Origin: a virus
Virus record (IMG/VR): IMGVR_UViG_3300037475_000049
Span: 1-61,990 of that record
DNA length: 61,990 nucleotides
Reading direction: 5' to 3' (one strand)
Part shown: piece after piece, positions 12,525 to 41,111 of the stretch
Numbering within the stretch: position 1 is the stretch's first letter
Layout of the letters: every line of letters begins with the position of its first letter
Translations under genes and position numbers: made by a program
Notes under the pieces: model-generated
The model's database searches: none
The model's input: the letters and a program-made list of their open reading frames with translations, nothing else
What the model was told of the DNA's origin: nothing

Positions 12525-12604
12525 CGCCAATCGAGTTCATTGGGGCTATGGCTGTTCTTCTGTTTGTGATTGCCGCGATTGGCGCGTGCAACGGCACTTT
12601 ATGA
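12521..12604 (+). CDS. Tiny single-span membrane peptide, 27 aa
   Basis: ATGA overlaps on both sides. One hydrophobic helix (FIGAMAVLLFVIAAIGA) and a short polar end. Function unknown. Confidence 0.5.
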   Translation: MTPIEFIGAMAVLLFVIAAIGACNGTL

Positions 12605-21800: not shown

Positions 21801-22112
21801 TCAAAGGGTCCCGCTCTGTGCGTTGGACGTTCCGCCCGTAGGCGTCCCCACCAGTTGCCAGTCCACCTTGCCTGCCGTGGCGCTGGGCTTGATCGTCCAA
21901 GTGAATGCGCCGTCTGTGGAGTTAAACTGACCCTCCATGGTCTGCCCTGCCTTCTGTACCTGGATCTGCTGATTAACGCCGCCTGAGTAGGCCGCAACTT
22001 CATTGACCCATGGCGCTCCGAGTTTCAGCCAGATATAGACGTGGCTCCCTCCGATGGTCATAGCCACAGTAGCGGGGCTGGGTTGCGAGAAGATTGCGTT
22101 TACGTTGCTCAT
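21801..22112 (-). CDS. Hypothetical beta-rich protein, 103 aa
   Basis: Start ATG 22112 overlaps the previous stop. The sequence is beta-rich and Ser/Thr/Gly-rich (GGSHVYIWLKLGAPWVNEVA, GTPTGGTSNAQSGTL). It may be a small receptor-binding or fibre-tip protein. Not recognised. Confidence 0.5.
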   Translation of the reverse strand: MSNVNAIFSQPSPATVAMTIGGSHVYIWLKLGAPWVNEVAAYSGGVNQQIQVQKAGQTMEGQFNSTDGAFTWTIKPSATAGKVDWQLVGTPTGGTSNAQSGTL

Positions 22113-25100
22113 GGCCCAGTCACACAAGCCCCGCCTAATGCGGCATTCACTACCCTCTGCACGCTCGTAGTCCCGCATCCATCAGAGGCGATGTCGTTCG
22201 TACAGGCGATGATACGGAGCGCCATATTAGTTTGCAGTTGGATGTCAGTTACAGTTGGTGGAATTAGATTGGTCTTCGGGGAGCATGTCAACGTAGAAGC
22301 ACTGCCCAGCACCGCATCAAGCAGAGAGAAGTTTACGCCAGGGTCGGTATGGTCGCTTGCCGCATTACGCCATGGACCGCTGCCCGTTAAGGCAAAGCCA
22401 TGATAATCCGCGCTCACCGTGGAGTAACTAGCAAATGGGGCTCCCGCGTAATTCGTCCCTTGAGTGGTGTCGTAAAAGGTGGGCAGTACGATTGATCCGT
22501 AGCGGCTCGTGATCGTCGCATCGCTCACGCCTTGGCCGCCATTGATGGCCCCAGAATTGATGATGGCGTTATTTATTGCGGTCCATGTCGGCCCGGTGCT
22601 TACATCTGCGGTTAGGCAAAGAGAGCCGTCCACGAAACCAGCCGAGTCAGGGCACTGATTAGTCCAGCGGTATTGATCGAACTCCGTGATGTTGTCTTTA
22701 ATCACCAGATTTGTGAAATTGTAGGGCAATCCGCTTGCTAACCGCATATTGATGCCTGCGCCCAAGAGATGGTTGTGAAGAACCTGGAGAGAATCAGTCC
22801 CGCCGCCAGAGAGCCCGCAACCCGTATACCCAGCAAGCTCGAATACTGTCCCGCCGCTCGCGATGGAGGCCGCCGCACCAGGAACGAAGAACAGATTGTT
22901 CTGAATCAATACACGCTTCAGATAGCCAGGGCACGGCCCCGCGAAGCTCTGCGCGGAAATGATGACAAACTCCCCGGCGATGTTCTTGAAAACGTTATTT
23001 GTTAAACTCACATCACTCGAAATGCACCATGGGCAATCGCCGTTCTGATCAGTCACATTGATGTTGAAAGCGAAGTTCTGGCCGTTGTTCCATGTGTTGA
23101 TGCAGACGTTACCGTTAATGTTCCAGCGCTGCCCATACTTATCCTCAATACAGTTCTTGCTGGAGCGGGTAACCCCGTCATAACTGGGATCGCTAGGATT
23201 CCAGGAGGGAGGCTTGTATAGGAAGTTCTTAGTGATCGTGATATCGGTTGGCACGATGCCCCAGAGTGCTTTTGCCGCTCCAGCAATCGGCGGGGCGTGG
23301 ATCGCTCCAAACGTCAGCGCTCCCGCCGTATTTCCCGTGATCACGGTAGAATCGGTAGGCAGATAGGCGGGAGCGCCGCTTGATGTCTTAAACATCACCA
23401 CTGTCCCAATGGCAGGAGTTGAAACTGAACCGCTATTGCCATCGACACAACTGCTCACGGTTGCGGCAGTAGTAGTGGGCGCGGGACTTGCCGCAATGGT
23501 ACAGCTATAGCCCGGAGTCGCGCCCGTACCGCCAAAGAGAATGATTTCCGTGGATGCCGACAAGAAGTTGTTCTGAATCAGATACCCTGCGGTGCCCGCC
23601 GTCCCCAAAAGAGCCTGTGCATCGCCGCTGCTTTGATAGATCTGGCTGATGTAGTTATTGACGATGGAGATGTTAGAGCCGCCCATGAGGACGCCCCGGC
23701 TCATCTGGATGCTCGCGCTCGCAGGGACGCCATGGATGTAGTTGCGGTCGAGCATTAGGTGATCGGGAAGCTGGCTCGCTACCGTTTCCGAGAGCGTGGC
23801 CATATAGATCAGAGAGCCCTGCGAAACGCTAGCCGTGACTTCGATGCAGCCGAGATAGTTGTACTTCCCAGGCGTCGTTCCATCCGTGAATTGGATCGGC
23901 GGTGCTCCGTTGGTGCTATTGATCGTCGCGTAATTAGTGAGAGACGGCGTGGCGAAAGGGGGAACGCTCGCAGAATTTACCGACGCAGTAGTTACATAGG
24001 TTGGAATCGGAACGGTGCCCGCGTTGCACCCAGCAGCCTCGATCAAAATCCAATTCGGCGCTGAGCACTGTTTATTGAAAACGAAGTTGCCAGTCTTGGT
24101 GATCCCCGCATCCAGCACTAGATCAGAACCGCACGCGGCTGCGTTGTACGTGGCTTGTAAGTCCGTTCCGCTATGAATCGGGATCACGCTTCCTGTAGGC
24201 GTTGGGCGCACAGCAGTGGGTACGGATTGGGGCGCGGTAGGGTTTGTGGGCGAAGCTCCAGTTGGACAAGCCGCCGCCGCAGTAGCCGCCGCCGTGTTCC
24301 CCGTATTCGTCCCCGGAGCCATGCCGCCCGTCTCTAGCAGGATTACATTCTGCGGAGGCGTCTGGTTGTTCATATCGCACCAGAAATTGTTTACCGTCTG
24401 CCATGTGTTGTCGCTGAACCCGATCAACTGCGCTTCGCCCCAATGTCCCGCCCGATTGTTCGATATGATAAACGCTGTGCCCATGGCCTCGATAGCGTCC
24501 GATTGATTAGAGGGTGCTCCCAAGTTCGGCCCTAGGAGGACGTTGCTGTCAATTAGGTGTCCCGTACCGCCCACCGCCACGGAGATACCCGCCTGCCCGT
24601 TGATCCCCGCTTGCGGAGTATCTATCGTATTCCCGCTGACCGTGACATTGTTGACGCTGAAATTACCCTGCACCTCGATGTTGTAGCGTGCGCTCCTATG
24701 GATCGTGTTCCCCGTGATGGTCACATTGGCGTCCGCCTGGTTCGCCGTGACATGGATCGCTTGCGTGGTCTGGGTGAAGGTGTTGTTGCTGATCGTGATT
24801 CCGGAAGGATCGAAGAACCACACCGCGCCGCATACTTCACTCCAGCCGTTGACATGGCGCGAGTCATAGATGTCCGTGAAGGAGTTTCCGCTGATGGTTG
24901 AGTCCGTCATTCCGGTCTGCGCATGGATCGCATCGGCCCCGTAGTCGGTGGCCGACCTCATGTGCTGAAAGACATTTCCCGTGATGGTGATGTTGGTAGC
25001 GGAAGTTGCCGTACTGCTGGCGCTTGATAGTATGCCGCCCCCGATGCCGCCGCCGTCAATGGTCAGGTTTTGGATGGTGATATTGGTAGCCGCATTGGCT

Positions 25101-25369
25101 GGAAGTTGAATGAATTGGGTAGTGACGGCACCGTTAAGTAAGCCACCGCCTGTCCCCAGATAAGTGCGATTGGAGAGAAAAGTGATGACGCTATTGACCT
25201 TGGTTGTTCCGGTCCAGACGATTGTATCTCCGCTAGAGGAGCCGTTAATCGCGGCCTGGACGGCTGCTGCGTCGTTAGTTGACCCATTACACGTGGCGGT
25301 CGAGCAGATGTTGACTGTAGCGGCCTGAAGCATAGAGGCCGCCGCGAGAACGATGAGAAATGGCTTCAT
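22109..25369 (-). CDS. Large secreted-type protein with two parallel beta-helix regions, 1086 aa
   Basis: Begins with a Sec signal peptide (MKPFLIVLAAASMLQA, cleavage after LQA). Residues ~50-330 show right-handed beta-helix repeats (NITIQNLTIDGGG, NVTITGNTIHRS, NVTVSGNTIDT) as in pectate lyase-like folds. A second repeat region (SNISIVNNYISQIY, YLIQNNFLSAS, DITITKNFLY) follows at ~540-900. Such folds are used in polysaccharide-degrading tailspikes and in secreted adhesins or lyases. The signal peptide is unexpected for a virion protein. It is the last of four consecutive signal-peptide genes. Confidence 0.75.
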   Translation of the reverse strand: MKPFLIVLAAASMLQAATVNICSTATCNGSTNDAAAVQAAINGSSSGDTIVWTGTTKVNSVITFLSNRTYLGTGGGLLNGAVTTQFIQLPANAATNITIQNLTIDGGGIGGGILSSASSTATSATNITITGNVFQHMRSATDYGADAIHAQTGMTDSTISGNSFTDIYDSRHVNGWSEVCGAVWFFDPSGITISNNTFTQTTQAIHVTANQADANVTITGNTIHRSARYNIEVQGNFSVNNVTVSGNTIDTPQAGINGQAGISVAVGGTGHLIDSNVLLGPNLGAPSNQSDAIEAMGTAFIISNNRAGHWGEAQLIGFSDNTWQTVNNFWCDMNNQTPPQNVILLETGGMAPGTNTGNTAAATAAAACPTGASPTNPTAPQSVPTAVRPTPTGSVIPIHSGTDLQATYNAAACGSDLVLDAGITKTGNFVFNKQCSAPNWILIEAAGCNAGTVPIPTYVTTASVNSASVPPFATPSLTNYATINSTNGAPPIQFTDGTTPGKYNYLGCIEVTASVSQGSLIYMATLSETVASQLPDHLMLDRNYIHGVPASASIQMSRGVLMGGSNISIVNNYISQIYQSSGDAQALLGTAGTAGYLIQNNFLSASTEIILFGGTGATPGYSCTIAASPAPTTTAATVSSCVDGNSGSVSTPAIGTVVMFKTSSGAPAYLPTDSTVITGNTAGALTFGAIHAPPIAGAAKALWGIVPTDITITKNFLYKPPSWNPSDPSYDGVTRSSKNCIEDKYGQRWNINGNVCINTWNNGQNFAFNINVTDQNGDCPWCISSDVSLTNNVFKNIAGEFVIISAQSFAGPCPGYLKRVLIQNNLFFVPGAAASIASGGTVFELAGYTGCGLSGGGTDSLQVLHNHLLGAGINMRLASGLPYNFTNLVIKDNITEFDQYRWTNQCPDSAGFVDGSLCLTADVSTGPTWTAINNAIINSGAINGGQGVSDATITSRYGSIVLPTFYDTTQGTNYAGAPFASYSTVSADYHGFALTGSGPWRNAASDHTDPGVNFSLLDAVLGSASTLTCSPKTNLIPPTVTDIQLQTNMALRIIACTNDIASDGCGTTSVQRVVNAALGGACVTGP

Positions 25370-25384
25370 CTTTAGGTGCCTTGC

Positions 25385-26488
25385 TCAACACGCATAAACA
25401 TTCCAATGGACAATCCAAACCGTCATCCCTGCTGCGAAATTGAAAAGTCCAAATCCAACATCGGCGGGGGTAAAATCCTGTGTTCTGGTTTCCGTAGAAA
25501 CCTGCTTAAAGGTAATCCCGTTAAAGGATAGAGAAAAGGTGCGAGTGGTAGAGCGGTCATCCCTAAATCGAGACCAAATGAGTGGACCAACCGGGAATGT
25601 GTTATATGCGTTATTGTTGGACGAAAAACTAGTCGAATTGGAGTAGTGCTTTTCCTGCCCATTAAATGCACTGCTATTCTCATATCCGTATGCCCACGCA
25701 GCAAAAGCATTGGAGGTTAGAAGTCCTGCGTTTACTGTGACTCCAGCCCCACCGTTCCCTACCTGAACATCACTTATCCAAGCCGCATCTGCGCAATACG
25801 CCCCTGATCCTGGGATTGCTAGGGCTATAAGCTGTGGCGCATGGCTACTTCCAGCGCTCGGGGTGGTCCATATAATTCCTCCATGCGTGGTTGTTAAGGT
25901 CGAATTTCCTGTTGCGATCTGTGTGAAATTACCTAGGACTGGTGGCGTTACTTGATAACCGAAAATAGTAGCCTGCCATGCAGAGCCGGTTGAGACATAA
26001 ACATACGGAAACCAGTCGCTGCAATTTAGAACGGTCCCCGCTGCTGGTACGGCGGGAAGAGATGCACACGTACTATACTGCCCCCCTCCACCGCCTCCGC
26101 CACCAAGGACAATTGCCTCATAGTTCGTCCCATCCGATGTCACGGTCCAACCAGTCGGAGCAGTAGCCGATCCTGCTATACCCGTCAGATTCGATGCCGC
26201 TCCGTTGATATTCTGGCCGCTACGCGCCAGCGTTACTACGCCCGTCCCGTAATTCAGAATCGTCACGCACTGCCCAGCCGGAGGTTGTGAGCCAGAGGCG
26301 ACGAGCGTAATCGTGAACGTACCGGAGGCGACAGGAATGAACCCACAAGGGCTGTTGAAGTCCGACGCGAGAACCTGATAGGTCGATGTCTGCGCATTCA
26401 CAGAGCCACTGAACGAACGCCGTCCATTCACCGTAGTCTGTGAAAAAGCAGTGGCCGCAAGCAACAAAACAAGAGGTATACTTTTCAT
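25385..26488 (-). CDS. Secreted-type protein with concanavalin-like C-terminus, 367 aa
   Basis: Signal peptide MKSIPLVLLLAATAFSQT. The N-terminal region has a beta-sandwich look (FTITLVASGSQPPAGQCVTI). A glycine run (GGGGGGGGQY) separates it from a C-terminal beta-rich domain ending in WNVYAC that may be lectin-like. Sits immediately downstream of a similar signal-peptide gene. Exact family uncertain. Confidence 0.55.
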   Translation of the reverse strand: MKSIPLVLLLAATAFSQTTVNGRRSFSGSVNAQTSTYQVLASDFNSPCGFIPVASGTFTITLVASGSQPPAGQCVTILNYGTGVVTLARSGQNINGAASNLTGIAGSATAPTGWTVTSDGTNYEAIVLGGGGGGGGQYSTCASLPAVPAAGTVLNCSDWFPYVYVSTGSAWQATIFGYQVTPPVLGNFTQIATGNSTLTTTHGGIIWTTPSAGSSHAPQLIALAIPGSGAYCADAAWISDVQVGNGGAGVTVNAGLLTSNAFAAWAYGYENSSAFNGQEKHYSNSTSFSSNNNAYNTFPVGPLIWSRFRDDRSTTRTFSLSFNGITFKQVSTETRTQDFTPADVGFGLFNFAAGMTVWIVHWNVYAC

Positions 26489-27625
26489 TTAGTTTTCCGC
26501 TCCCAGGGCGGCAAAGGCTGTCGGATTGGACTGATTATTGTACTCCGTCCTTAGCCAATCCGCAGATCGGACAGTACCGGAGACACGGTGTTCATCCAGG
26601 TTCCCGGTCATGCTGCCTGCGTTCAGAGAAGTTCCAAACCGCATACCGGGGCTTGAGGCGTTTCCGCTGTAGTCAATCGTGGCCCCAGCCCCAGCTACCA
26701 TCCCATCCTGAACGCCATTTACGTAAGTAATAAATCCGGTGGCGTTTGAATAAGTGAGTGCGAGATGATACCAAGTACCCGTTACTAGGGTCTGTGTTCC
26801 GAGAGTCGTGAGTCCCGTAGGGCCTGTGATGAGGATGATTGCAGTGACGTGACCCGCGCTATTGACGCTAAGATCATACCCGCCGCCAAGTCCGACCACT
26901 CGACTATTGTCCCAAGCGCCTATTGTATTAAAGCTATTGGACAAATTCGTAAAGTTTGCCCAGCCTTCGTAGGTGAGCGCGGAAGCCGGATTCAAATTAG
27001 ACCCGGTACAGCAACTTGCAAGAGAGAATGTCGCGCTAGCCCCACCATCGACCTCTCCAGTAATGGCTACGGTCGCATTCGTCGTATTGCCGCTGGCCGT
27101 CGAGTCGGCATTCTGGATAGCAGAGCCGTTGGGCCAATGCCATACCGCCCCGGTATTGGCATCATAGGTATTAGCCACTGTCATCTGCTGCGTCGAGAGA
27201 GAAGGTTCCCCGTAGCAGACATAATATAGGCTGTCTGCCGTATGAGAGACGGTCCCCGCGTTAAACCAGAAGAGTGCCGCACCCGTAGTGGCTGAATAAG
27301 CCTCAAACTCCCACCCCGCCACCCGCGTAGTGCAGGCGGAATCGCTCGTGATCACCGCATCCGCTGGGATCGTCAGGCCATACCCTCCCGATTGGGTCAC
27401 GGTATGCTGAATACTCCCGCCATTGGCAACCGTTGCCGAGATCGTTCCGCTCACGAGTACGGGGAAATTTGTTTGATCGGTATTCGGCACTAGCGTGTGG
27501 TCAATCGTAATTTGCCGGAAGTGCTGAAACCCGTTATGTGATCCGTTGAAATTCCCCGGCCCAGGGAATGGTAATGACTGGCCCCACAGAACCGGCGATA
27601 GGAGTAGAGCGGCGAGGAGTCTCAA
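26489..27625 (-). CDS. Secreted-type DUF2341 and LamG-like protein, 378 aa
   Basis: Signal peptide MRLLAALLLSPVLWGQS. The first domain (FRQITIDHTLVPNTDQTNFP) resembles DUF2341, common in surface proteins. The second (LTYEGWANFTNLSN, TWYHLALTYSNATGFITYVNG, SGTVRSADWLRTEY) is a LamG/concanavalin carbohydrate-binding fold. A glycan-binding role outside the cell or on the virion is inferred. Start directly abuts the stop codon region of the gene above. Confidence 0.7.
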   Translation of the reverse strand: MRLLAALLLSPVLWGQSLPFPGPGNFNGSHNGFQHFRQITIDHTLVPNTDQTNFPVLVSGTISATVANGGSIQHTVTQSGGYGLTIPADAVITSDSACTTRVAGWEFEAYSATTGAALFWFNAGTVSHTADSLYYVCYGEPSLSTQQMTVANTYDANTGAVWHWPNGSAIQNADSTASGNTTNATVAITGEVDGGASATFSLASCCTGSNLNPASALTYEGWANFTNLSNSFNTIGAWDNSRVVGLGGGYDLSVNSAGHVTAIILITGPTGLTTLGTQTLVTGTWYHLALTYSNATGFITYVNGVQDGMVAGAGATIDYSGNASSPGMRFGTSLNAGSMTGNLDEHRVSGTVRSADWLRTEYNNQSNPTAFAALGAEN

Positions 27626-29559
27626 CGGACTACCCTCCAGTTGATCGTGATAGCCCCTGGAGTTATCGAGGACAGAGTGTTATTACACACCTTGAAGTTC
27701 ACGGTGTTCGCGGTGGGATAAGGAATGATTGTCAGCATTCCAGTAGTCAGCGGGACATAGCCCGTTACTGCGGTAGGATCTCCATTGAAGCTGGCAATGA
27801 TTGCGTCGGTGGTAAGCGCTCCCGTAGCCGTATCGGTCTGAGCCGCCGAACAGGTAGCGCTTCCTATGGCATTTGTTGCAAGCGCCTTCGCCCCGCTAGC
27901 GATGAGCCGCGCCCCGCAAAGAGAGGCCCATGTTGCTGTCGTGGTTACCGCTACGTTTGTATTCGGAGCAAGCGCGCTATAGCCACATCCCCCGCTGACC
28001 ACGGTATCGTTCACGTTGTAATTTGCGGTCGAGTTCCAGGTGCCCTTGAAGTTCATCAAGGTCACTGGAAGCGTCAATTGCCCAGTACCGGACTGCAAAG
28101 AGCAAGCGTCGAGATAGAAGCCAATGCTTGAACTACCGCCATTGCCGGTGATCTGACCCTTGAGCGTCGTTACCAAGTTCGATCCGGCCCCGAACAGACT
28201 GATTGGGATTACTATTTGCTGATAGGAGGTGGAATTGCTGCTTAGGAAATTGAAGGCGTTATCTTTAACTACTACCTGAGAACCAACCTGCGTAGAACCA
28301 TTCAGCCAGAACAGCGAAAGAGTGCGTAGGCCGTTAACGCCATTCCCGCTACTAGTAGGCCACTGCGCCTTGGAGCGTATATAACAGACCAATGAGTTCA
28401 GCGTGGAAAGATCGGTAGTCCCCGCAGCAGGCTTAACTAGGGTGAAATTGTTCCCCAAGACTGCCGTAGTCGCCTCAATATCTTTCGTTCCGCGATAGGG
28501 GTTATTGGTCGATGCACAGTTGAGGTTTGCCGAGGTCGCGCAGGTCCATTCTGTATTTTCGTCGTAGATCGTAGTGCTGGCGATTCCACCCGGGGTGCTG
28601 CTTCCAGCCGGGACCAAGACGACATTTAAGGGAAGTTCTGTCGAATAGTCCACAGCGGGTTGCGCAGGAGTCACGGCAGGGGTTCCGGTGAGAAAGTTCG
28701 CTATCCCGGTGTTGTCCACGTAGATTACATCAATACGTGGGTTGGTCATATCGGCAGTAGTGAGTGTCAGGCTCGTAAGCGCACTCGAATATTGCGTGCC
28801 TCCGATCTGATAGGTTCCCGCCCCGACTTGGAATGTTAGGCCAGAAATGTACTCAATCCCAAGCCCAGTAAGCGGCTGATTTGGAAGCGACCCCGGAGTT
28901 CCGCCACCTGGGGGCCCAGTCGGGCCAGTGGGCCCTGCGGCCCCAGCCCCAGAAAGCACCACACATGAACCACTTTGGGAGTTTTGAAATGTCACCGTGT
29001 AACTATTCGTGGTGGTTGCCTTCTCTGTATTCGTTTCAATCCTCTGTGGCGGGCTCGCGTTGTCATAACATTGAACCTCCACATTGACGGTTCCTAGATT
29101 GTGGGTTAGCGCAACGCTAGTCTGCGAAGAGAATGATTGACTATAGGCCGAAGTTGCTGACGCCGTTGGAGCGGTCCATGTATTCGTAGCGGTACATTCG
29201 TAAATGTTCTGACCCGCCGTTGCATCGGTGGCAAAGTAAATATCACCCACCGTGCACGTAGCTGGAAGGCCAGATATTAACCCTGTCCGCACCCCCTGTA
29301 CGCTGTTATTGGCGCAGGTTCCGGTGACGTTTCCACCAAGGGAAGCGCAAGTCCCTCCTGTCCCTGTTCCCATAGGGGACCATGTATTCGTGGCGGAACA
29401 AAAGAAAGGAGTTTTGCTGGTCGTGTTGTAGTAGATATCGCCGGTAGCTGTCGAACAAGCGACTGGGGCTGAAGGAAAGTATCCTATATGCCGTGCGGTG
29501 GACGTGAACTGCCCAAACGCTGACGTTGCTAAAAAACACAGCAATAGCAGGTACAGCAT
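27622..29559 (-). CDS. Secreted-type tail-fibre-like protein with collagen-like segment, 645 aa
   Basis: ATG 29559 follows TTTGGAGG. The signal peptide MLYLLLLCFLATSAFGQ is followed by two copies of a fibre motif (GDIYYNTTSKTPFFCSATNTW and GDIYFATDATAGQNIYECTA). A short collagen-like run (GPTGPTGPPGG) comes next, then a beta-rich body with FKGTWNSTANYNVNDTV, as in carbohydrate-binding fibre tips. It is the first gene of the four-gene block, with the operator-like motif pair directly upstream. Confidence 0.7.
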   Translation of the reverse strand: MLYLLLLCFLATSAFGQFTSTARHIGYFPSAPVACSTATGDIYYNTTSKTPFFCSATNTWSPMGTGTGGTCASLGGNVTGTCANNSVQGVRTGLISGLPATCTVGDIYFATDATAGQNIYECTATNTWTAPTASATSAYSQSFSSQTSVALTHNLGTVNVEVQCYDNASPPQRIETNTEKATTTNSYTVTFQNSQSGSCVVLSGAGAAGPTGPTGPPGGGTPGSLPNQPLTGLGIEYISGLTFQVGAGTYQIGGTQYSSALTSLTLTTADMTNPRIDVIYVDNTGIANFLTGTPAVTPAQPAVDYSTELPLNVVLVPAGSSTPGGIASTTIYDENTEWTCATSANLNCASTNNPYRGTKDIEATTAVLGNNFTLVKPAAGTTDLSTLNSLVCYIRSKAQWPTSSGNGVNGLRTLSLFWLNGSTQVGSQVVVKDNAFNFLSSNSTSYQQIVIPISLFGAGSNLVTTLKGQITGNGGSSSIGFYLDACSLQSGTGQLTLPVTLMNFKGTWNSTANYNVNDTVVSGGCGYSALAPNTNVAVTTTATWASLCGARLIASGAKALATNAIGSATCSAAQTDTATGALTTDAIIASFNGDPTAVTGYVPLTTGMLTIIPYPTANTVNFKVCNNTLSSITPGAITINWRVVR

Positions 29560-29571
29560 GATGCCTCCAAA

Positions 29572-29616
29572 CACAACATATAGTGTTACGGACATCTTAA
29601 CCCACAAGATGTTGTG
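29572..29616. promoter_or_regulatory. Operator-like dyad upstream of the signal-peptide block
   Basis: CACAACATATAGTG (29572-29585) is the exact reverse complement of the motif at 59979-59992. CACAAGATGTTGTG (29603-29616) lies 31 nt further on. CACAACAT and ATGTTGTG form an 8-bp perfect dyad. It lies between the leftward block and the rightward glycosyltransferase cassette. Confidence 0.6.
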
Positions 29617-29651
29617 TTGCAATGAATGCTTTCAGAAACTACTTGCTAAAC

Positions 29652-29685
29652 GTCTAGGATACCGCTAGACTGTTTTTTGGTATCC
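29652..29685 (+). promoter_or_regulatory. Attenuator-like overlapping hairpins before the glycosyltransferase cassette
   Basis: GTCTAG (29652-29657) pairs with CTAGAC (29665-29670), followed by TGTTTTTT, an intrinsic terminator shape. Alternatively GGATACC (29657-29663) pairs with GGTATCC (29679-29685) and would disrupt the first stem. The two folds compete, which is the logic of a transcription attenuator. Confidence 0.45.
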
Positions 29686-29712
29686 CGACCCAAAAACTGG
29701 ACCGCAGTGCAG

Positions 29713-29829
29713 ATGGGACGCATCGGCGGCAAGAAGCGCATGGCTAAGATGACCAAAGAGCAGCGCACGGAGCTTGCGCGGGCTGCGGCTAGAGCGCGTT
29801 GGGATAAGAAGAAACAGGAGAACCAGTGA
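29713..29829 (+). CDS. Small basic protein of the GRIGG...RARW type, 38 aa
   Basis: MGRIGGKKRMAKMTKEQRTE followed by LARAAARARW resembles a widespread family of short basic proteins of unknown function. In-frame upstream GTG (29707) or TTG (29677) starts would extend it by 2-12 residues. First gene of the rightward cassette. Confidence 0.5.
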   Translation: MGRIGGKKRMAKMTKEQRTELARAAARARWDKKKQENQ

Positions 29830-29945
29830 CTTGGCTTGATTGGATGGCGCTGGGAGCCTTATTCCTGGCTGTCGTGCTGGAGATGCGTTGGTTCAACCGT
29901 GATTTGTGGCCGAAGTGGTGGAATATTTTTGACTGGAGACTATGA
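29826..29945 (+). CDS. Tiny Trp-rich membrane peptide, 39 aa
   Basis: GTGA overlap with the previous gene. One span (WMALGALFLAVVLEM) and a Trp-rich C-terminus (LWPKWWNIFDW). The stop overlaps the start of the glycosyltransferase. It might anchor cassette enzymes at the membrane. Confidence 0.5.
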   Translation: MTWLDWMALGALFLAVVLEMRWFNRDLWPKWWNIFDWRL

Positions 29946-31093
29946 GCCAAACCCCGATCCTTTTCCTTTCCGATAGTCCAGATATCCAGACCGGACTTGC
30001 GAGGATTACCCGCGATCTCGCCTGCATGACCGCTTCCCTGCCAGAGTTCCGAGTGGCAACGCTGGGGCGGGGCGGCTACGGCTCCGCCAAATTGCCATTT
30101 GCGCAATACAACTTCCCGGAAGCGCATCAGTGGGGCGAAGACCACCTAGAGCGCGCCTGGAAAGAGTTCTCGCGCGGCAAGATGGGGATCATCATGACCA
30201 TCTGGGACCCTAGCCGCCTCCTGTGGTTCTCGCAACCCTCTCAAGCCATGGGCGACGGGCTCTACAAGTTCCTCACGGGTGGTACGTTCCTCAAGTATGG
30301 CTATTTCCCCGTCGATGGCACGGGCATCAGCGATAAACTAACCCGAATGAGCGCGGCCACGATCCAAGGCTACAATCGCGTCCTAGCCTACACTGCATGG
30401 GGTGCTGGCGTGATCGAGCGCACCATCGGGAGGCCCGTGGACTGGATTCCGCACGGCTTTGACGGCGAGAAGTTCCAGCCCCGCGACAAGAAAGCCTCTC
30501 GGATGATGATGGGGGTGGCTGATGATGAAATCCTGATAGGGATGAACGCCACCAACCAAGCCCGCAAGGACTGGGGAATCGCATTCGCAGCGATTGCGGC
30601 GCTCCAGACGAAGCGCAAGGTTAAGTTCTGGATACATACGGACGTTCTGGAGCGGCACTGGTCGCTGAACGCGCTTGCTGCTGACTTTGGCGTGTCGCCT
30701 ACGGTTACGCTGTGCGGGACCAAGACGGATGTTGAGTTGTCGTACCATTACGCAGCGTGCAATCTAACAATCCTGCCATCAAGCGAAGGCTACGGATTCC
30801 CGCTGGTCGAGTCGATGGCCTGCGGAGTGCCGGTGATTCACGGCAGTTACGGCGGTGGGGCTGAACTAATCCCCCGTGAATCGTGGTTGGTCGCGCCGAC
30901 ATCGTTCCATCTGGAGACGCCACAAAATGTGCTTCGGCCCGTGTGGGAACCGAACGATTGGGTTGCGGCGATTGAACGAGTACTAGAGGAGAAGCCGAGC
31001 GCGGAGGAGTGCAGGGCTGCTACGGATCACCTGCAATGGTGCAATCTGTTCCCTTCAGCTTGGAAACGCTGGTTCCTTGAGGGTTTGGGATGA
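29942..31093 (+). CDS. GT-B glycosyltransferase (GT4-like), 383 aa
   Basis: The N-terminal Rossmann half begins ILFLSDSPDIQTGLARI. The C-terminal nucleotide-sugar half has the E-x7-E signature (SSEGYGFPLVESMACGVPVI) around residue 280. It transfers a sugar from an activated donor, probably retaining. It is the first of five transferases in this rightward cassette, coupled to the next gene by a 4-nt overlap. Acceptor unknown; a virion protein, DNA or a host glycan are all possible. Confidence 0.8.
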   Translation: MSQTPILFLSDSPDIQTGLARITRDLACMTASLPEFRVATLGRGGYGSAKLPFAQYNFPEAHQWGEDHLERAWKEFSRGKMGIIMTIWDPSRLLWFSQPSQAMGDGLYKFLTGGTFLKYGYFPVDGTGISDKLTRMSAATIQGYNRVLAYTAWGAGVIERTIGRPVDWIPHGFDGEKFQPRDKKASRMMMGVADDEILIGMNATNQARKDWGIAFAAIAALQTKRKVKFWIHTDVLERHWSLNALAADFGVSPTVTLCGTKTDVELSYHYAACNLTILPSSEGYGFPLVESMACGVPVIHGSYGGGAELIPRESWLVAPTSFHLETPQNVLRPVWEPNDWVAAIERVLEEKPSAEECRAATDHLQWCNLFPSAWKRWFLEGLG

Positions 31094-31728
31094 TCCCTTT
31101 CATCTGCGTAGCGGAACCTAACAATGAAGATATTGGGCCAGTGCGCCAGTACCACACGTACTACGCAACTCATGCTTGCGATCCAATAGCCGTGTTTATG
31201 CACAACGATGTGGATATTTTTGAGCCTTGGGAAGATCGCGTAATGGCGGAGTTCGATGACCCCAAGGTAGGAATAGTAGGGTTCGGTGGAGCAGTGGGTA
31301 TCGGTACTGCGGAGATTTATAAGCGACCATATGACATCTGGCAACTTCAGAGAATCGGGTACCGCTCGAATCAACGGGACTGGCATATTCATGGGACTCA
31401 TGAAACAGGAGCATGCAATGTGGCAGTTGTCGATGGCTTCTTTATCGCTGCGCGTAAAGATTTTCTGTTTCAAATCAAGGGATGGTCTTGGTTCCCATTT
31501 CAGTTTCACTGCTACGACACCGCTATCTGCTTGATGGCAGCACGCCATGGGTGGAAGGTTCGCATGGTTGGAATTGACTGCACCCATCGCGGCGGCAGCG
31601 CGTCTATAACGCCTGAGTACAAGGCGCGTTGCGAGAAGGCGGGAACTACTATTGAGCGCGAGCATTCAGAGCCTCACAAATGGCTTTATTCTGAGTTCAA
31701 AGATTGCTTGCCGCTGAGGGTTGCATGA
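31090..31728 (+). CDS. GT-A glycosyltransferase-like protein, 212 aa
   Basis: Starts MIPFICVAEPNNEDIG and has a D-x-D-like motif (MHNDVDIFEPWED) for metal/nucleotide-sugar binding, then a galactosyltransferase-type loop (VVDGFFIAARKDFLF) and FHCYDTAICL. Resembles phage and bacterial GT2/GT-A enzymes. ATGA overlaps on both sides. Confidence 0.7.
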   Translation: MIPFICVAEPNNEDIGPVRQYHTYYATHACDPIAVFMHNDVDIFEPWEDRVMAEFDDPKVGIVGFGGAVGIGTAEIYKRPYDIWQLQRIGYRSNQRDWHIHGTHETGACNVAVVDGFFIAARKDFLFQIKGWSWFPFQFHCYDTAICLMAARHGWKVRMVGIDCTHRGGSASITPEYKARCEKAGTTIEREHSEPHKWLYSEFKDCLPLRVA

Positions 31729-32225
31729 ATCGTTACAACCTTTGCAGTGGTCAGCGACCATTCTCAGCGCCCTTTATCAATGTGGATTCGCAAGCCAAAT
31801 GGAACCCGGATGTGGTGGCCGACTGCTCGCACATGCCGATGTTCGAGGATGCCAGCGCGGACATGATCGTAATCCATCACGGATTAGAACACTTCGGCTG
31901 CGGTGAGGCGGACGCGATGCTGAAGGAGTGCTACCGGATACTGGCACCTGACGGCTCCTTGATCGTGTGCGTGCCGCACATGCGAGCACTCGCGCAGCGT
32001 TGGCTAGCGCGGCAGATGGATGACCAAATCTATTTCACTAACCTGTACGGGGCTTATATGGGCGAAGAGGCGGATCGGCATCGCTGGGGATTCTCTGAAG
32101 TGTCGCTGTTCGAGACGCTGGCCGTATGTCCCTGGATGCGGATCAGAAAGTTCGACTGGCGCGAGATACCTGGGGCTGACATCGCTAAAGATTTTTGGAT
32201 TCTAGGAATGGAAGCCATTAAATGA
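31725..32225 (+). CDS. Class I SAM-dependent methyltransferase, 166 aa
   Basis: Short type-11-like methyltransferase: NVDSQAKWNPDVVADC corresponds to the motif I/II region, ADMIVIHHGLEHF to motif IV and YRILAPDGSLIVCVPH to motif VI. It lacks a classic GxGxG, as do many phage members that set the reference frame from a glycosylated object. Probably methylates a sugar or acts with the adjacent transferases. Confidence 0.7.
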   Translation: MNRYNLCSGQRPFSAPFINVDSQAKWNPDVVADCSHMPMFEDASADMIVIHHGLEHFGCGEADAMLKECYRILAPDGSLIVCVPHMRALAQRWLARQMDDQIYFTNLYGAYMGEEADRHRWGFSEVSLFETLAVCPWMRIRKFDWREIPGADIAKDFWILGMEAIK

Positions 32226-32437
32226 AGCAGATCAAGGTAGTGGTCGATGGAGTTGCGCCGATCCTCATCACAGCCAATGCGGGATGTTTTCTGAGAGTGG
32301 ACAGCGAATCGTCAAACTATTTCAAGGTAACGGCCTACAAGACCTCGAAGGTGCTCGGCGTCAGTTGGCGAGTTTCCAAAAAAGTAGTCGCTGGATTCGC
32401 AATCAATAAATTGGTTCTGTGGACGGAGGTAACGTGA
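32222..32437 (+). CDS. Hypothetical beta-rich protein, 71 aa
   Basis: Unrecognised small protein within the glycosyltransferase cassette, with alternating strands (QIKVVVDGVAPILITA, NYFKVTAYK, KLVLWTEV). ATGA/GTGA overlaps place it firmly in the operon. Confidence 0.55.
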   Translation: MKQIKVVVDGVAPILITANAGCFLRVDSESSNYFKVTAYKTSKVLGVSWRVSKKVVAGFAINKLVLWTEVT

Positions 32438-33150
32438 CGCCTGTTCTCATCCCTATCATCAATGGCCGTGAGTTGACCCGCAACTGCATCAATAGCGTGC
32501 TCGCACAAGACGTGCCCTGCGAAGCGTTCGTGCTCGACAATGGCGCGACTGATGGCAGCGGCGAGATGCTCCGCGCATGGGCCGATGATCGCATCCACTA
32601 CATCGCAGCACGCAAGCCGAGCGTTGCGGCGTCATGGAACTTTGGGTTGAAGTGGCTATTCGCACAAGGGCATGCCGCCGTTCTTGTTTTAAATAATGAT
32701 ACCGAGTTACGCCCCGATACTGTGCGCTGGCTGATGGCTGATGGTGGTCCTTTCGTCACGGCGGTCGGCGCGGTGGAAAAAGAGAAGATAGAGCCTCCGT
32801 ACATTCCTCCTGATCCTTCAAAGAAGCGTGACCACCCGGATCACAGTTGCTTTTTGATTAGAAAATCCTGCTATGAAGCTATTGGCGGATTCGATGAGGA
32901 ATATGAAGGAGGCTACGTAGAAGACGCGGAGTGGCACCTATCAATGTATCGCGCTGGAATACCCGCTGTCTGTCTGGAGCTTCCATTCTGGCATCTTGGA
33001 GCAGGGACTATCAAAAACTCTGATCCTGAAATGATGCGCGAGATACAGTTGAGGGCGGATCATAACCGATCTAGGTTCAAAGAGCGTCACGGTGCGGAAG
33101 TTGGCTCTCCTGAATATTACGCCTTGTTCGGTCACGGAGCGCCAGAATGA
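32434..33150 (+). CDS. GT2 family glycosyltransferase, 238 aa
   Basis: Classic GT2 opening: TPVLIPIINGRELTRNCINS and FVLDNGATDGSGEML. The DxD equivalent is VLNNDTELRPDTV. The acceptor part has SCFLIRKSCYEAIGGFDEEY and YVEDAEWHLSMYRAGI. Start is GTG 32434 (GTGA overlap). Inverting transferase; substrate unknown. Confidence 0.85.
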   Translation: MTPVLIPIINGRELTRNCINSVLAQDVPCEAFVLDNGATDGSGEMLRAWADDRIHYIAARKPSVAASWNFGLKWLFAQGHAAVLVLNNDTELRPDTVRWLMADGGPFVTAVGAVEKEKIEPPYIPPDPSKKRDHPDHSCFLIRKSCYEAIGGFDEEYEGGYVEDAEWHLSMYRAGIPAVCLELPFWHLGAGTIKNSDPEMMREIQLRADHNRSRFKERHGAEVGSPEYYALFGHGAPE

Positions 33151-33854
33151 CAAACATCGTTTTGATAACCAACGGTTCCCGTCCCCGCTTGCTAGCTCAA
33201 ACATTACGGACGCTGTACGTCAACACACCAGCGGACCAGTATACGCTGACGATGGTCACGGATGGGCACATAGAATTTCCCTTTGAGCAAGATTGGGGAG
33301 AGCGCATTTCAGTGATTGGGATGCGACCCCCATGCAATATCCTGGGACGCCTAAAGAACTTAGGAATTTATTGGTCCAATAAGCAGTTCGGTCGCGGTGA
33401 GTGGCTTTGTGTTTTGGATGACGATTTAGCGTTCTGGCCGGGATGGTTGGAGAAGATGGCGTATGCACTAGAGTGCAGGAATGAAGTTCGCATCCTAGGC
33501 GGCGTGAGGCATCCCTATCATGGAATAAATGAGATCCTTTCGGCTGATAATTTTAAGCGTGATGTAAAACCAAATGACCTTGTACAGACGATAGAATCCA
33601 CTGACGCCGTTGCTGGCTATTGCCACTTCATGCGCTGGAAGACGTGGGATCGCTTCGGCCCGTATGACGCTCACGCCAAGGGAACAGGGCAGAGCGAGGA
33701 CTTTGCTATCTGTCGCAAGATTGTGGACGCTGGCGGTAAGGTGGGCTATATCCACCCTCCGGTTATGGCGCATTGTGGCGTCACTGATTCGCTTGGCCGT
33801 CCAGCAATCGGCATGGAAAAGATCCAACGCAAACTAGGCGTGCTCTATGAATAG
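33147..33854 (+). CDS. GT-A glycosyltransferase, 235 aa
   Basis: IVLITNGSRPRLLAQTLRTL is a GT2-like start. The metal site is LCVLDDDLAFWPGWLE. Later GYCHFMRWKTWDRFGPYD and GQSEDFAICRKIVDAG are acceptor-side signatures. Coupled to both neighbours by short overlaps. Confidence 0.8.
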   Translation: MTNIVLITNGSRPRLLAQTLRTLYVNTPADQYTLTMVTDGHIEFPFEQDWGERISVIGMRPPCNILGRLKNLGIYWSNKQFGRGEWLCVLDDDLAFWPGWLEKMAYALECRNEVRILGGVRHPYHGINEILSADNFKRDVKPNDLVQTIESTDAVAGYCHFMRWKTWDRFGPYDAHAKGTGQSEDFAICRKIVDAGGKVGYIHPPVMAHCGVTDSLGRPAIGMEKIQRKLGVLYE

Positions 33855-34494
33855 GGGCTCGCCAGAGTACATCGAAGCCGTCCAGCGCGTGAAGATCGAC
33901 TACTTTACGGAACACCTTGGGCTGGATATAAAAGGCATTCTGCACGTCGGCACCAACGACGGTTATGAGATGCAGTTCTACCGCAGTATGGGGATTGAGC
34001 ACTTAGCGGGGGTTGATCCGCTGCCTTCGGCAATTGGACTATTCCGGGAACATTATCCGGACATACCTCTATTTGAATACGCACTCTCCGATGTTCCTGG
34101 TAGGGCAATGCTAAACGTGGTCACTCCTGGAGATGGTCAGGGGTCGAGTCTATTGGTTGAGTGTCGGCCTAACCCGGACTACAATTACAATTCTCAGGTA
34201 GAGGTGGAAGTCAGGCGCGGAGATTCGCTGCCTATTGCTTGGGAGAATTTTGACTGTATGGTTGTGGACGTGCAGGGATTAGAGCTTCCAGTTTTAGTGG
34301 GATTTGGAGACGCCCTTCGTGGATTTCGGATGCTCAATATCGAGTGTTCAATTGAGCCCGTATATGAAGGCGGAGCGAGAGCAGCGGACGTGGATAGTTA
34401 TCTAGCCTCAATGGGATTTGTTCGTAAATCTGATTTTGAAATCCATAATGATGTGTTTTGGGTGAGAGAGGACGTGCAATGCCTGAACCATTAG
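33847..34494 (+). CDS. FkbM family methyltransferase, 215 aa
   Basis: GILHVGTNDGYEMQFY is motif I, HLAGVDPLPSAIGLFREHY is motif II and FDCMVVDVQGLELPVLVGF is the FkbM hallmark (D-V-x-G-x-E in the wider family). FkbM enzymes O-methylate sugars or natural products. It follows a glycosyltransferase, so it may cap the added glycan. Confidence 0.8.
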   Translation: MNRGSPEYIEAVQRVKIDYFTEHLGLDIKGILHVGTNDGYEMQFYRSMGIEHLAGVDPLPSAIGLFREHYPDIPLFEYALSDVPGRAMLNVVTPGDGQGSSLLVECRPNPDYNYNSQVEVEVRRGDSLPIAWENFDCMVVDVQGLELPVLVGFGDALRGFRMLNIECSIEPVYEGGARAADVDSYLASMGFVRKSDFEIHNDVFWVREDVQCLNH

Positions 34495-35171
34495 TCTTCA
34501 CGGCCAACTACACATGGCCCGACGTGGACTGGTCGCTACTCAAGCGCTCCGCAGAGCGCGTGGGCATTGACATTCAAACCTACGGCGATGGTAAAGGATG
34601 GCCCGGTTACGGCGTCGGCAAGCTAGTTGGCCCATTGGAGTTCTTGCGGGGGCGAACAGAAGAGGTGGTGCTGTATACGGATTCGCAAGACTCCTTCCTC
34701 GTGCATGACGCAAAGACGATCCTGAATGGATGGATGCGCTGCGGTGCTCCGCAAGTACTGCTGCAAGCAGAAAAGAACTGCTACCCAGAACCGACATGGG
34801 AACCTGAATATCCGCGTAATGATTCATCATGGCGCTACATCTGCGCTGGCGGCTGGATGGGCACTCGTACTGGCATCATAGCCGCCTTAGAAGAGATCAT
34901 TAGCGGGGGTCAATTCAAAGAGAACTCCCATTGCGATCAGCGGTGCTGGACGGACTGGTATCTTCGTCATCCTAGCGGGAAACTGCGGGCGACTCTCGAT
35001 ACTAATTGTGAAGTTTTCCAGAGTTTCTTTACGGAGACAGAAGTTGCGAACGATGGGCGCAATCTGATTACCGGAACACGCCCTAGTATTTTCCATTTCA
35101 ACGGGCGCACGCATGGGGAACGCGAATGGTACAAGAGGATAACCGGCGATGAACCTCCAAACGTTAGCTGA
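34479..35171 (+). CDS. PLOD/procollagen-type glycosyltransferase, 230 aa
   Basis: The sequence follows the glycosyltransferase domain of lysyl hydroxylases and related viral enzymes. It has VVLYTDSQDSFLVHD (D-x-x-D metal/UDP site), VLLQAEKNCYPEP (the A-E-x-x-C-x-P element), WRYICAGGWMGTRTG (S/A-G-G-x-x-G loop), DQRCWTDWYL and IFHFNG (the H-x-N-G end). These enzymes add glucose or galactose to hydroxylysine-type acceptors. Here no hydroxylase domain is attached. ATG 34479 is preceded by GAGAGAGGA. Confidence 0.75.
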   Translation: MPEPLVFTANYTWPDVDWSLLKRSAERVGIDIQTYGDGKGWPGYGVGKLVGPLEFLRGRTEEVVLYTDSQDSFLVHDAKTILNGWMRCGAPQVLLQAEKNCYPEPTWEPEYPRNDSSWRYICAGGWMGTRTGIIAALEEIISGGQFKENSHCDQRCWTDWYLRHPSGKLRATLDTNCEVFQSFFTETEVANDGRNLITGTRPSIFHFNGRTHGEREWYKRITGDEPPNVS

Positions 35172-35784
35172 GCATACTGTCGATGTAGACTTGCTACCGG
35201 AAGCGCCCATAGTCTTCGACATCGGATGCCGCTGGTTCTCTTTCTCCGCTGAGATTAAGCGTCTTAGGCCCAACGCTCGCGTAGTTTGCTTCGATCCCGA
35301 CCCGCTTGTAGCGCTGGACCCAAAGGGCGGCGAGTTCGAGTTCCAACAGAAGGGAATCGTTGGGAGGCCAGCCATTCCCCACGATGGAACGGCTAGGCTT
35401 TATCGATACCTGGATGGCGTGTCTGATTTCATAGACGGCCTAGCCTGCGAGCACTACTTCAGGGACCATGCAATCTACCAAGGGGATTTTGTAGACGTTT
35501 CGGTAACCACAATCGAGGACGCTATGCGGGATGCCGGGGTCAATCACTTGGATGTAGTTAAGCTCGACTGCGAATGCTCTGAATTTTCCATTCTCGGCAA
35601 TTGGCCTGGGCCAATAGCTACTCAAATTAGCGTGGAGTTCCATGACTGGGCGGATCGGTCTAAGTGGTCTAAGCAATACTTTGATGCCCTGTTCTCTGGG
35701 CCCCTCAAAGACTACAGGATCGTACAGCACGAGGAACACGGCAGCTATTCGTATATGGATTCGCTGTTAGTGCTGAGGGATTAG
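35149..35784 (+). CDS. FkbM-like methyltransferase, 211 aa
   Basis: APIVFDIGCRWFSFSAEI is motif I, RVVCFDPDPLVALD motif II, and HLDVVKLDCECSEFSIL the FkbM-type core with D-C-E-x-S-E. Second FkbM-like enzyme of the cassette, overlapping the PLOD-type gene by 23 nt. Confidence 0.75.
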   Translation: MNLQTLAEHTVDVDLLPEAPIVFDIGCRWFSFSAEIKRLRPNARVVCFDPDPLVALDPKGGEFEFQQKGIVGRPAIPHDGTARLYRYLDGVSDFIDGLACEHYFRDHAIYQGDFVDVSVTTIEDAMRDAGVNHLDVVKLDCECSEFSILGNWPGPIATQISVEFHDWADRSKWSKQYFDALFSGPLKDYRIVQHEEHGSYSYMDSLLVLRD

Positions 35785-35786
35785 CT

Positions 35787-36410
35787 ATGTATGATCTGAG
35801 CGTGTACAACGATCACTTTTTCAGCAACAATCAAGCCGAAGGGCTGCGCCATGCCGAGTGGTTCATGCCGTTACTGGAGGGTTTGTTCCACTTCAAATCT
35901 CTGGTGGATGTTGGCTGCGGGACGGGACACTTTGTGAAGTGGTGTTTGGATCACGGTATAAGTGCAATTGGAATGGAGGGAGCGGACGCGGCAATTGCGC
36001 ACTCTCTCATCCCTAACGATGTGTGGCATCTAGATTTACGGACTTCATGGCCGGGGGCGGCATCCAAGCAGTTCGACCTAACACTTTGCATCGAAGTAGC
36101 CGAACACATCGAAGAGGAATATGTGAACATCTTCGTGGATACGCTGTGTTCGCTTTCCGATACCATCGTGATGACTGCTGCGTCTCCGGGACAAGGTGGC
36201 GAACACCACGTAAACGAGCAACCGCAGGAGTATTGGCAAAGCCTGATGGCGCTACGCGGGTTTGGCTTTGACTTCGCCAAGACGACGGCGCTGAAGGAAG
36301 GTGTGATGGCCGCGCGGGCTAACGGCTTCCACGTTGCTACGTGGCTACCGGGGAATCTGCAATGTTACCGCAAGGCTACTGCGGCGGGGGCGGCGGAGCC
36401 ACAGGCGTAG
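35787..36410 (+). CDS. SAM-dependent methyltransferase, 207 aa
   Basis: LVDVGCGTGHFVKWCLDHGI is a textbook motif I, AIGMEGADAAI motif II and FDLTLCIEVAEHIEEEYVNI motif IV. Last gene of the rightward cassette; it runs 35 nt into the convergent virion gene at 36376. Fourth methyltransferase of the cluster. Confidence 0.8.
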   Translation: MYDLSVYNDHFFSNNQAEGLRHAEWFMPLLEGLFHFKSLVDVGCGTGHFVKWCLDHGISAIGMEGADAAIAHSLIPNDVWHLDLRTSWPGAASKQFDLTLCIEVAEHIEEEYVNIFVDTLCSLSDTIVMTAASPGQGGEHHVNEQPQEYWQSLMALRGFGFDFAKTTALKEGVMAARANGFHVATWLPGNLQCYRKATAAGAAEPQA

Positions 36411-37587
36411 CCTTCATCTGCTGCATCGCAGCCACCACTTCATCGCGGGCTTGCTCGAACGTGCGGTGGTAGTTGCGTCCAGTAGAAGGCTCATACGGCT
36501 TCCCATTGGCATTCTTGACGTTGCGGACATGAGCATTGAACTCCGCTTCTGGCATCTGCGCGACGGCATCCGGCGTCATCCCTTTGTCTGTGAAGTATTG
36601 CCCAATCTCCAGGTTCTTGCGCGTTGTGTTGGCGCGGAGCATGTTCACTAGGTTCGTTTCGCGATCCAGCGGGGCTGTTTTACCTAGCGGTTGCGAGATC
36701 GCTGGCGCTGGCGCTGCCTCTGGCATACCGGGCGGCGGCGTGATTGCTGGGGGAGCGGCGGTCGTCGGTACTGGCTTGGGCGTGGGCGGCTTGCCAGATA
36801 GATTATTGTGAGCGTTGATCGCAGCCTGTTGATACTTAGCTGGAGCATTAGAGAACTTCTTATACGATCCTCCCGTAAGCCCAGCCACGATTTCATCTAA
36901 TGACGGAGCAGTAGATGCCGCCGCAGCAGAAGCCGCTGGCGGCGGAGGAGGTGGGACATCCATTACTCCCGGAACCGTCCCCGATGAACCTAGAAACACC
37001 TTTGACGGAGGCGGTCCTTCTATGGGAGTGACAGGTATCTTGGCCGCTGGAGCGGTGGTTCCTAGGTCCGTAGTCAGCACGGGACGCTCTACCCCTGGTC
37101 CATGGCCGAATTTAGAACCTACCCCAATTCCAGCAGCACTAGCGATAGCGCGCGATATGGTAGGCGGAACACCAACGGCACGCAGCCCCTTTTCTACCGC
37201 CCATTCCGTACCGATACCTCCGCCTACACTCGCGGCTCTCCGTAAGAATCCAGGCGCTCCAGCCGCCATGCCCGTAGCCGTAGCGGGTACGCTTGCGCCT
37301 ATCATGGATTCGGCAGATGGCACGTAGTCGGAAGCTCCAGCAAGGAAATCGGCAACCTTGCCAGCGGTTGTATCATGACCTACGGTATCAGCGAACGATT
37401 TATGGGGACCGGTGCTGGGCATTCCCCACGGAGCTAGCTGTAAACCGGGAGGGGTATACTTGTCTGGGTTGGCATGGAGCGGGTTAGGCACTCCAGGGCC
37501 TTTAGATGACGATACTAGAGTTACTTGTGACGGATCGACTGTGATTGCGCTGACCTGCGAAGGATCAACGACCAGAGTATCTGGCAT
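36376..37587 (-). CDS. Internal virion or minor structural protein, 403 aa
   Basis: Low-complexity Pro/Ala-rich protein with a Gly/Ala-rich hydrophobic middle (GASVPATATGMAAGAPGF and ISRAIASAAGIGVGS) that could insert into membranes, and a charged helical C-terminus. It follows two other candidate ejection proteins in the virion operon, and such proteins form the transient channel in short-tailed phages. Assignment is by context. Confidence 0.55.
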   Translation of the reverse strand: MPDTLVVDPSQVSAITVDPSQVTLVSSSKGPGVPNPLHANPDKYTPPGLQLAPWGMPSTGPHKSFADTVGHDTTAGKVADFLAGASDYVPSAESMIGASVPATATGMAAGAPGFLRRAASVGGGIGTEWAVEKGLRAVGVPPTISRAIASAAGIGVGSKFGHGPGVERPVLTTDLGTTAPAAKIPVTPIEGPPPSKVFLGSSGTVPGVMDVPPPPPPAASAAAASTAPSLDEIVAGLTGGSYKKFSNAPAKYQQAAINAHNNLSGKPPTPKPVPTTAAPPAITPPPGMPEAAPAPAISQPLGKTAPLDRETNLVNMLRANTTRKNLEIGQYFTDKGMTPDAVAQMPEAEFNAHVRNVKNANGKPYEPSTGRNYHRTFEQARDEVVAAMQQMKATPVAPPPPPQ

Positions 37588-40566: not shown

Positions 40567-41111
40567 ATTCCCTGCCACAAGGCCGTGAGCGTTGAATTGA
40601 GAGGATCGACGGTAGAAGTGCCAGCGCCAGCCGCTTCTTTGCGGATGACGAGCGTACAAGTTTCATCTCCAGAGACAGCCGCCACTTGCCACGATTGGTG
40701 AATGATGACCTTGCCATCAGTAGCGGAGTTGACTACACCGTAATGCGATGTCTGCGTAGCTCGATTCACTTGCAATGCAAGCCGGAAATCAACAGTATCT
40801 CCCGCAATAGTCAATGCTACGGAAGCGGTCAGCGTCCACGTTCCCTGCCGATTGAGTTGCAGCGATACATTGAACCCATTGCCATCATCGGTATCGGTTG
40901 GCGGAACAGTCACAGGATCGCCAGTGCCCACAGAAACGAGCGAGGCAGGACCGTAGGCGTCTCGTAGCCCCTGCTGATTGTCGATGATCTGGCGCAGAGC
41001 GGTGTCTATCTGAAGGTTCCCAGTAGGGCCGGGGCGATACATGCGCGTCGGCTGGGGTGGTTTCGTCTGCCCTGCGCTCTTGCGGCCTGTCAACTTCTCG
41101 AATGGGCTCAT
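40563..41111 (-). CDS. Structural protein, 182 aa
   Basis: Basic, Pro-rich N-terminus (LTGRKSAGQTKPPQPTRMYR), a helix (IDTALRQIIDNQQGLRDAYG), then a beta-sandwich-like body (GTWTLTASVALTIAGDTVDF). This suggests a virion-anchored fibre or decoration protein. No family name assigned. Confidence 0.5.
   Translation of the reverse strand: MSPFEKLTGRKSAGQTKPPQPTRMYRPGPTGNLQIDTALRQIIDNQQGLRDAYGPASLVSVGTGDPVTVPPTDTDDGNGFNVSLQLNRQGTWTLTASVALTIAGDTVDFRLALQVNRATQTSHYGVVNSATDGKVIIHQSWQVAAVSGDETCTLVIRKEAAGAGTSTVDPLNSTLTALWQGI

Follow-up and report, generated by a model that had tools for sequence, protein, structure and literature searches.

A cassette of nine glycan enzymes

The window, i.e. the whole stretch of 61,990 nucleotides analysed here (IMG/VR virus record IMGVR_UViG_3300037475_000049), carries a cassette of glycosyltransferases (GTs) and methyltransferases (MTs) which probably serves a cytosolic, stepwise glycosylation of the virion with O-methyl tailoring, a virion protein being the putative acceptor. 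The cassette occupies positions 29677-36410 (+) and forms a single overlapping operon that encodes five GTs and four MTs according to Pfam, in the order GT4-GTA5-MT11-p71-GT2-GT2_3-FkbM-PLOD-FkbM2-MT23. Dozens of other phage contigs contain the same families in a conserved order, which makes this more than a chance assembly.

The first enzyme of the conserved cassette is a GT4 glycosyltransferase with an EX7E motif (29942-31093 (+); Pfam Glyco_trans_1_4, 8e-14), and the conserved second enzyme is a GT-A glycosyltransferase termed GTA5 (31090-31728 (+); PF13712, 3.5e-11). They are followed by the class I S-adenosylmethionine (SAM)-dependent methyltransferase MT11 (31704-32225 (+), alternative ATG at 31725; Pfam, 5e-10), by a tenth open reading frame (ORF) of 71 aa without a family match (p71; 32222-32437 (+)) and by a GT2 glycosyltransferase (32419-33150 (+); Pfam, 3e-13), the last enzyme in most other cassettes. 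Further downstream lie the GT2_3 glycosyltransferase with its DDD motif (33147-33854 (+); Pfam, 1e-6), an FkbM methyltransferase (33847-34494 (+); Pfam, 2e-10), a GT of the PLOD/LH3 type (34458-35171 (+), alternative ATG at 34479; Pfam, 9e-22), a second FkbM-like or Methyltransf_22-like enzyme with a score just under the curated cut-offs (35149-35784 (+); 7e-4) and the Methyltransf_23 enzyme MT23 (35787-36410 (+); Pfam, 2e-8).

When the longest start codons are taken, neighbouring ORFs of the cassette overlap by 4-37 bases, the single exception being a gap of 2 bases. The nine enzymes and the tightly overlapping rightward operon described in an earlier note, made from the letters alone, were thus both recovered, as were the small basic protein and the membrane peptide which it had placed at the operon head. 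The former extends over 29677-29829 (+) if translation starts at TTG 29677, or begins at 29713 as in the earlier note; the latter is a 39-aa peptide with a GTG start (29826-29945 (+)) that overlaps both neighbours and, as read from the sequence, contains one hydrophobic stretch. Only two of 74 loci, the window and the relative G003, have a small basic protein of this kind ahead of GT4; it is therefore no part of the conserved cassette unit.

The cassette was also said to interrupt leftward genes, and such genes indeed lie on both flanks. A tail-fibre-like protein with a signal-peptide-like N-terminus (27622-29622 (-)) is divergent from it, and at the other end MT23 runs 35 bases into the convergent p403 (36376-37587 (-)), the final gene of the leftward virion operon, whose C-terminus is conserved beside the cassette in the relatives G001 and G002. 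The third-position GC content (GC3) of the cassette, 0.599, equals that of the virion genes (0.602) and thus gives no hint of a recent import. Scans for promoters and terminators gave a signal no higher than in shuffled sequences, and a megablast search of phage records with the region returned zero matches.

A crude hydropathy scan revealed no transmembrane helices in any of the nine enzymes, and known GT motifs are retained in the glycosyltransferases. The GT4 profile matches B736L, whose structure is solved (1.5e-11), and the PLOD profile matches human LH3 (2e-32) and R699 (6e-29). The predicted model of GTA5 (pLDDT 88) was closest among solved folds to majastridin, followed by polypeptide GalNAc-transferases, with LH3 further down. 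Eight of the nine enzymes match none of the PADLOC defence models; for MT11 a match to mad2 was obtained that is weak and partial (2.9e-5), as the fold common to methyltransferases would lead one to expect. Taken with the operon structure and with the sugar-tailoring enzymes in relatives described below, these families and motifs lend good support to the earlier proposal that the cassette makes a methylated oligosaccharide.

Conservation and exchange of cassette enzymes

Single-sequence scans of viral contigs with PLOD, a 981-aa protein of the window or GT4 returned no relatives, and alignment queries were needed. A four-sequence GTA5 alignment yielded 16 loci and a 17-sequence GT4 alignment 117 relatives, 80 of which were retained for analysis. 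Gene order was evaluated in 28 complete, non-redundant cassettes, each of which includes GTA5 and four or more labelled enzymes. Of these, 24 begin with GT4, 19 have GTA5 in second place and 22 end with GT2; shuffling of the gene order gave means of 4.6-4.7, and none of 2000 shuffles reached any of the three counts. The loci had been found via GT4, but 6 kb upstream were inspected as well, and enzymes do precede GT4 in four cassettes. The commonest order is GT4-GTA5-GT2_3-(MT24)-(PLOD)-MT11-GT2. The window conforms to it in its first two enzymes, whereas GT2 is fourth instead of last, and its cassette is therefore a rearranged member of the GT4-GTA5-GT2 family.

The interiors are variable and include extra methyltransferases, NAD epimerase, DegT aminotransferase, GNAT acetyltransferase and SDR dehydrogenase, the last three types occurring together in the relatives L077 and L089; a radical-SAM/B12 enzyme is found in the interior of 11 loci. 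These are the usual tailoring enzymes of glycan loci. The cassette is thus a widespread mosaic family in dozens of environmental phages. Searches of the open-access literature yielded no account of a GT4-GTA5-GT2 cassette, which is weak evidence of novelty, many journals being outside their coverage.

Position relative to the virion genes falls into several types. At most loci the 3' end of the cassette faces leftward genes; of 27 convergent GTA5 cassettes, 10 are directly followed by detectable homologues of p403, p652 or p223, and others by leftward genes of similar size. In a second type the cassette lies between TerL and portal and is co-directional with them (e.g. L061, L062, L069, L081). 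A third type consists of a GT4-GT2 pair beside ORFs judged head-gene-like from their sequence alone. In the cultured Synechococcus phage S-CBS4 a GT4-GT2-MT11 tandem is located between the portal and capsid genes.

The 981-aa protein is common to four IMG/VR contigs (G001-G004; 58-65% identity). The cassette is present in G001-G003, while that of G004 is reduced to a PLOD/GT/MT set, encoded on the other strand from its virion genes. The order in G003 matches that of the window up to PLOD, except that MT24 takes the position of FkbM and that GT2 and GT2_3 are fused. As a separate observation, the portal block and the glycan cassette of G003 (L023-L026, 10.1-42 kb) are swapped relative to the window, G001 and G002 with strands kept, possibly through misassembly; near this cassette, a protein at L024 11641-12966 contains many short repeats of the RDSVGASV/WASVRDSV type.

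Identity between G001 and G002 is 94-99% for three virion proteins (981-aa, portal and 182-aa). Their cassettes agree to a similar degree in GT4 (98%), MT24 (97%), PLOD (98%) and GT2 (93%), but diverge in GT2_3 (59%), MT11 (53%) and a methyltransferase-like protein (68%), with GTA5 at 83%. Judging from this near-identity of virion proteins next to divergence at individual enzymes, single steps of the cassette have been replaced between near-identical phages. It is possible, if not quite probable, that the cassette represents a polymorphic 'glycotype' locus in a large group of uncultured phages, with a fixed GT4-GTA5 start, a fixed GT2 end and a swappable interior, by which near-identical phages would bear different virion glycans. 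Such a locus would parallel the variation of O-antigens or flagellin sugars in bacteria.

The putative acceptor of the glycan

We propose that the cassette encodes a self-contained pathway of glycan assembly, which operates in the host cytoplasm on the phage's own virion protein(s). An early GT, either GT4 or GTA5, would attach the first, host-supplied nucleotide sugar to side chains of a virion protein that is abundant, for instance the major capsid protein (MCP); the other GTs would then add sugars singly, and the FkbM and other MT enzymes would O-methylate sugar hydroxyls. As interior enzymes are swapped between near-identical phages, the glycan would differ from phage to phage. Its likely benefit would be shielding, or an altered adsorption or recognition of the particle. 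The earlier note had left the choice between a virion protein and the host surface. We favour the virion protein because of the virion-operon location in several phage types, the soluble enzymes and the lack of PGT and GtrA genes in 36 of 36 records (see below); the alternative of host-surface remodelling fares less well.

Several points weigh against virion glycosylation. The order statistics given above take no account of shared ancestry, the likeness of GTA5 to polypeptide GalNAc-transferases is confined to the fold (TM about 0.5, with about 10% identity), and profiles of GT4, GTA5, GT2, GT2_3 and PLOD found no significant match among the GTs of mycobacteriophage Che8, in which virion glycosylation genes are known (best 8.8 bits). 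For the Ser/Thr-rich, Ig-like neighbours (41108-44109 (-)), no counterpart could be detected in the cassette-bearing L135 and L138. In addition, a tyrosine integrase (PF00589) is encoded in 11 of the 36 records, which leaves room for a modification of the host during lysogeny.

The missing counterparts led us to reject the Ig-like proteins p435 and p564 as obligatory acceptors. MCP, p404, p416, p981 and p223 are better candidates since they are common to the cassette-bearing relatives. Independently of their role, the two adjacent Ig-like virion proteins (41108-44109 (-) in the window; L010 12940-16255) have a C-terminal tail in common, PPxxCxxVPx...LxxxEPxEQxGT, which may be a motif for attachment to the virion.

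The main rival to virion glycosylation is remodelling of the host surface, by which lipopolysaccharide, capsule or another surface glycan would be altered during infection or lysogeny and related phages barred from superinfection. Polymorphism of glycan loci is characteristic of host surfaces, which the gtr systems of phages are known to remodel; the integrase-bearing records and the adsorption-type genes that adjoin the cassette in the window (22109-29622) also fit this explanation. We nevertheless consider it unlikely. Neither the GtrA-type flippase of O-antigen conversion (gtr) systems (PF04138) nor the polyprenyl-phosphate sugar transferase of lipid-linked capsule and O-antigen loci (PGT, PF02397) was found in any of the 36 records, and the controls matched in both searches. 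The window cassette comprises no membrane-spanning enzyme, the integrase is absent from the window and from 24 other records, and in several phages the cassette is co-directional between TerL and portal.

Hypermodification of phage DNA, in which the GTs would place sugars on hydroxylated bases as a protection against restriction, was implied by one of the checks suggested in the earlier note. Viral GTs are known to glycosylate DNA with multiple sugars (Pyle et al. 2024, via PMC12619734). However, the thymidylate synthase/dCMP hydroxymethylase family (PF00303) was detected in 0 of 36 records but in nine control genomes, ten non-cassette ORFs of the window gave no base-modifying Pfam match, and the cassette genes accompany virion and not replication genes, making this explanation very improbable. 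A search for TET/JBP oxygenases had no match even in the control genomes.

Glycosylation of a collagen-like tail fibre by the PLOD-type GT, as would be expected of the lysyl-hydroxylase/GT proteins of other phages, is equally improbable. The enzyme is homologous to the GT domain of LH3, to which its profile match was given above, and has the conserved DxxD and HxNG motifs. The PLOD-GT proteins of Roseobacter phage CRP-6 and Synechococcus phage S-PRM1 exceed the GT domain in length (about 590-615 aa), and proteins containing 98 and 58 Gly-X-Y triplets are encoded close to them. The window protein, in contrast, has a length of 237 aa, contains one Pfam domain and lacks an oxygenase domain, and the only Gly-X-Y run in the window comprises 4 triplets (in 27622-29622). 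The collagen-fibre reading of this enzyme was therefore rejected, a collagen-like protein being lacking in the window. In CRP-6 and S-PRM1 (L007 8287-11899; L008 1-8176) the Gly-X-Y proteins near PLOD-GT are rich in GxKGQKG, which may hint at a collagen modification in those phages.

Although antibiotic pathways, too, include FkbM and radical-SAM/B12 enzymes, modification of a small molecule or metabolite, or a mosaic of moron genes that are unrelated and lack a common product, deserves little credence in view of the conserved ordered core with step-wise exchange, which points to one shared product, and of the failure to find a biosynthetic scaffold enzyme among the cassette families examined.

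Comparison with known glycosylation systems

Mycobacteriophages glycosylate capsid and tail tube with phage-encoded GTs, and those of cluster O have three tandem GTs beside an O-methyltransferase (PMC11600133, PMC12363180). Virion glycosylation genes are given there for Che8 (gp108-110), Corndog and Myrna (Freeman et al. 2023, via PMC11600133, PMC12363180, PMC12619734). The window likewise has tandem soluble phage GTs with methyltransferases, but nine enzymes against about three or four, and belongs to another phage group. The MT24 profile obtained from the cassettes of the relatives has a match in Che8 gp108 (17.5 bits), MT24 being a family absent from the window.

Chlorovirus PBCV-1 builds and O-methylates its capsid glycan with A064R and A061L (PMC9614988). 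Chlorovirus and giant-virus self-glycosylation (A064R, A061L, B736L; R699) resembles the cassette in that virus-encoded GTs act with O-methyltransferases, GT4 corresponding to B736L and PLOD to R699. It differs in taking place in eukaryotic giant viruses, with another gene set and an N-glycan linkage. On the best reading, the cassette would work like the mycobacteriophage and chlorovirus systems, with GTs not detectably related to those of Che8.

The minimal version of the cassette in S-CBS4, a cultured phage, is formed by gp014-016 in the head gene region, where GT4 (4e-27), GT2 (3e-20) and MT11 (4e-8) stand in tandem. There are three genes only, without GTA5, PLOD or FkbM, and gp015 is annotated as hypothetical. 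In flagellin glycosylation islands such as the viosamine island of Pseudomonas syringae (PMC3927599), GTs and tailoring genes modify a self-assembling surface protein; the SDR, aminotransferase and GNAT genes of L077 and L089 are reminiscent of these. The islands are bacterial, have flagellin as their target and are likened here by gene content.

If virion decoration proves true, it would point to an undescribed selective force on the surfaces of environmental phages. Virion glycosylation has so far been shown in a few mycobacteriophages, the benefit discussed there being shielding from animal antibodies. Environmental phages have no obvious antibody exposure, yet in these the cassette is common, its frame conserved and its content diversified.

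The phage and further features of the window

The window phage encodes head, portal, terminase and tail genes. A complete and circular assembly of the 62-kb contig is probable, given its exact 127-bp direct terminal repeat (1-127 and 61864-61990). For the virion module, the closest cultured relatives that were found are the Acidobacteriota podoviruses Tunturi_1 and Tunturi_2, which are Tunturiibacter phages (PMC11924767), at identities of 24% in the portal, 27% in MCP and 31% in the 981-aa protein. None of the cassette enzyme families was found in Tunturi_1. From these relatives a host among the Acidobacteriota might be supposed, but this is only a guess. Alignment searches of genome contigs returned no relatives with the 981-aa protein, nor with GTA5, for which one narrow pattern was used, so that absence from cellular genomes is weakly shown.

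A perfect 6-bp inverted repeat, GTCTAG-N7-CTAGAC (29652-29670), lies in the divergent intergenic region and may be an operator or a terminator. It was rejected as a repeated operator, there being no second exact copy in the window and 2-mismatch matches at chance level only.

Export signals are unusual on adsorption-type phage proteins. A crude home-made scorer found Sec signal-peptide-like N-termini on five large tail-fibre- or spike-like proteins of the window (22109-29622 (-), 47056-48762 (-)), on at least four of Tunturi_1 (10371, 13940, 15931, 19474) and on some of G003. Finally, a radical SAM protein is encoded among the early genes of the window (12586-13701 (+); phrog_9298, 6e-48).

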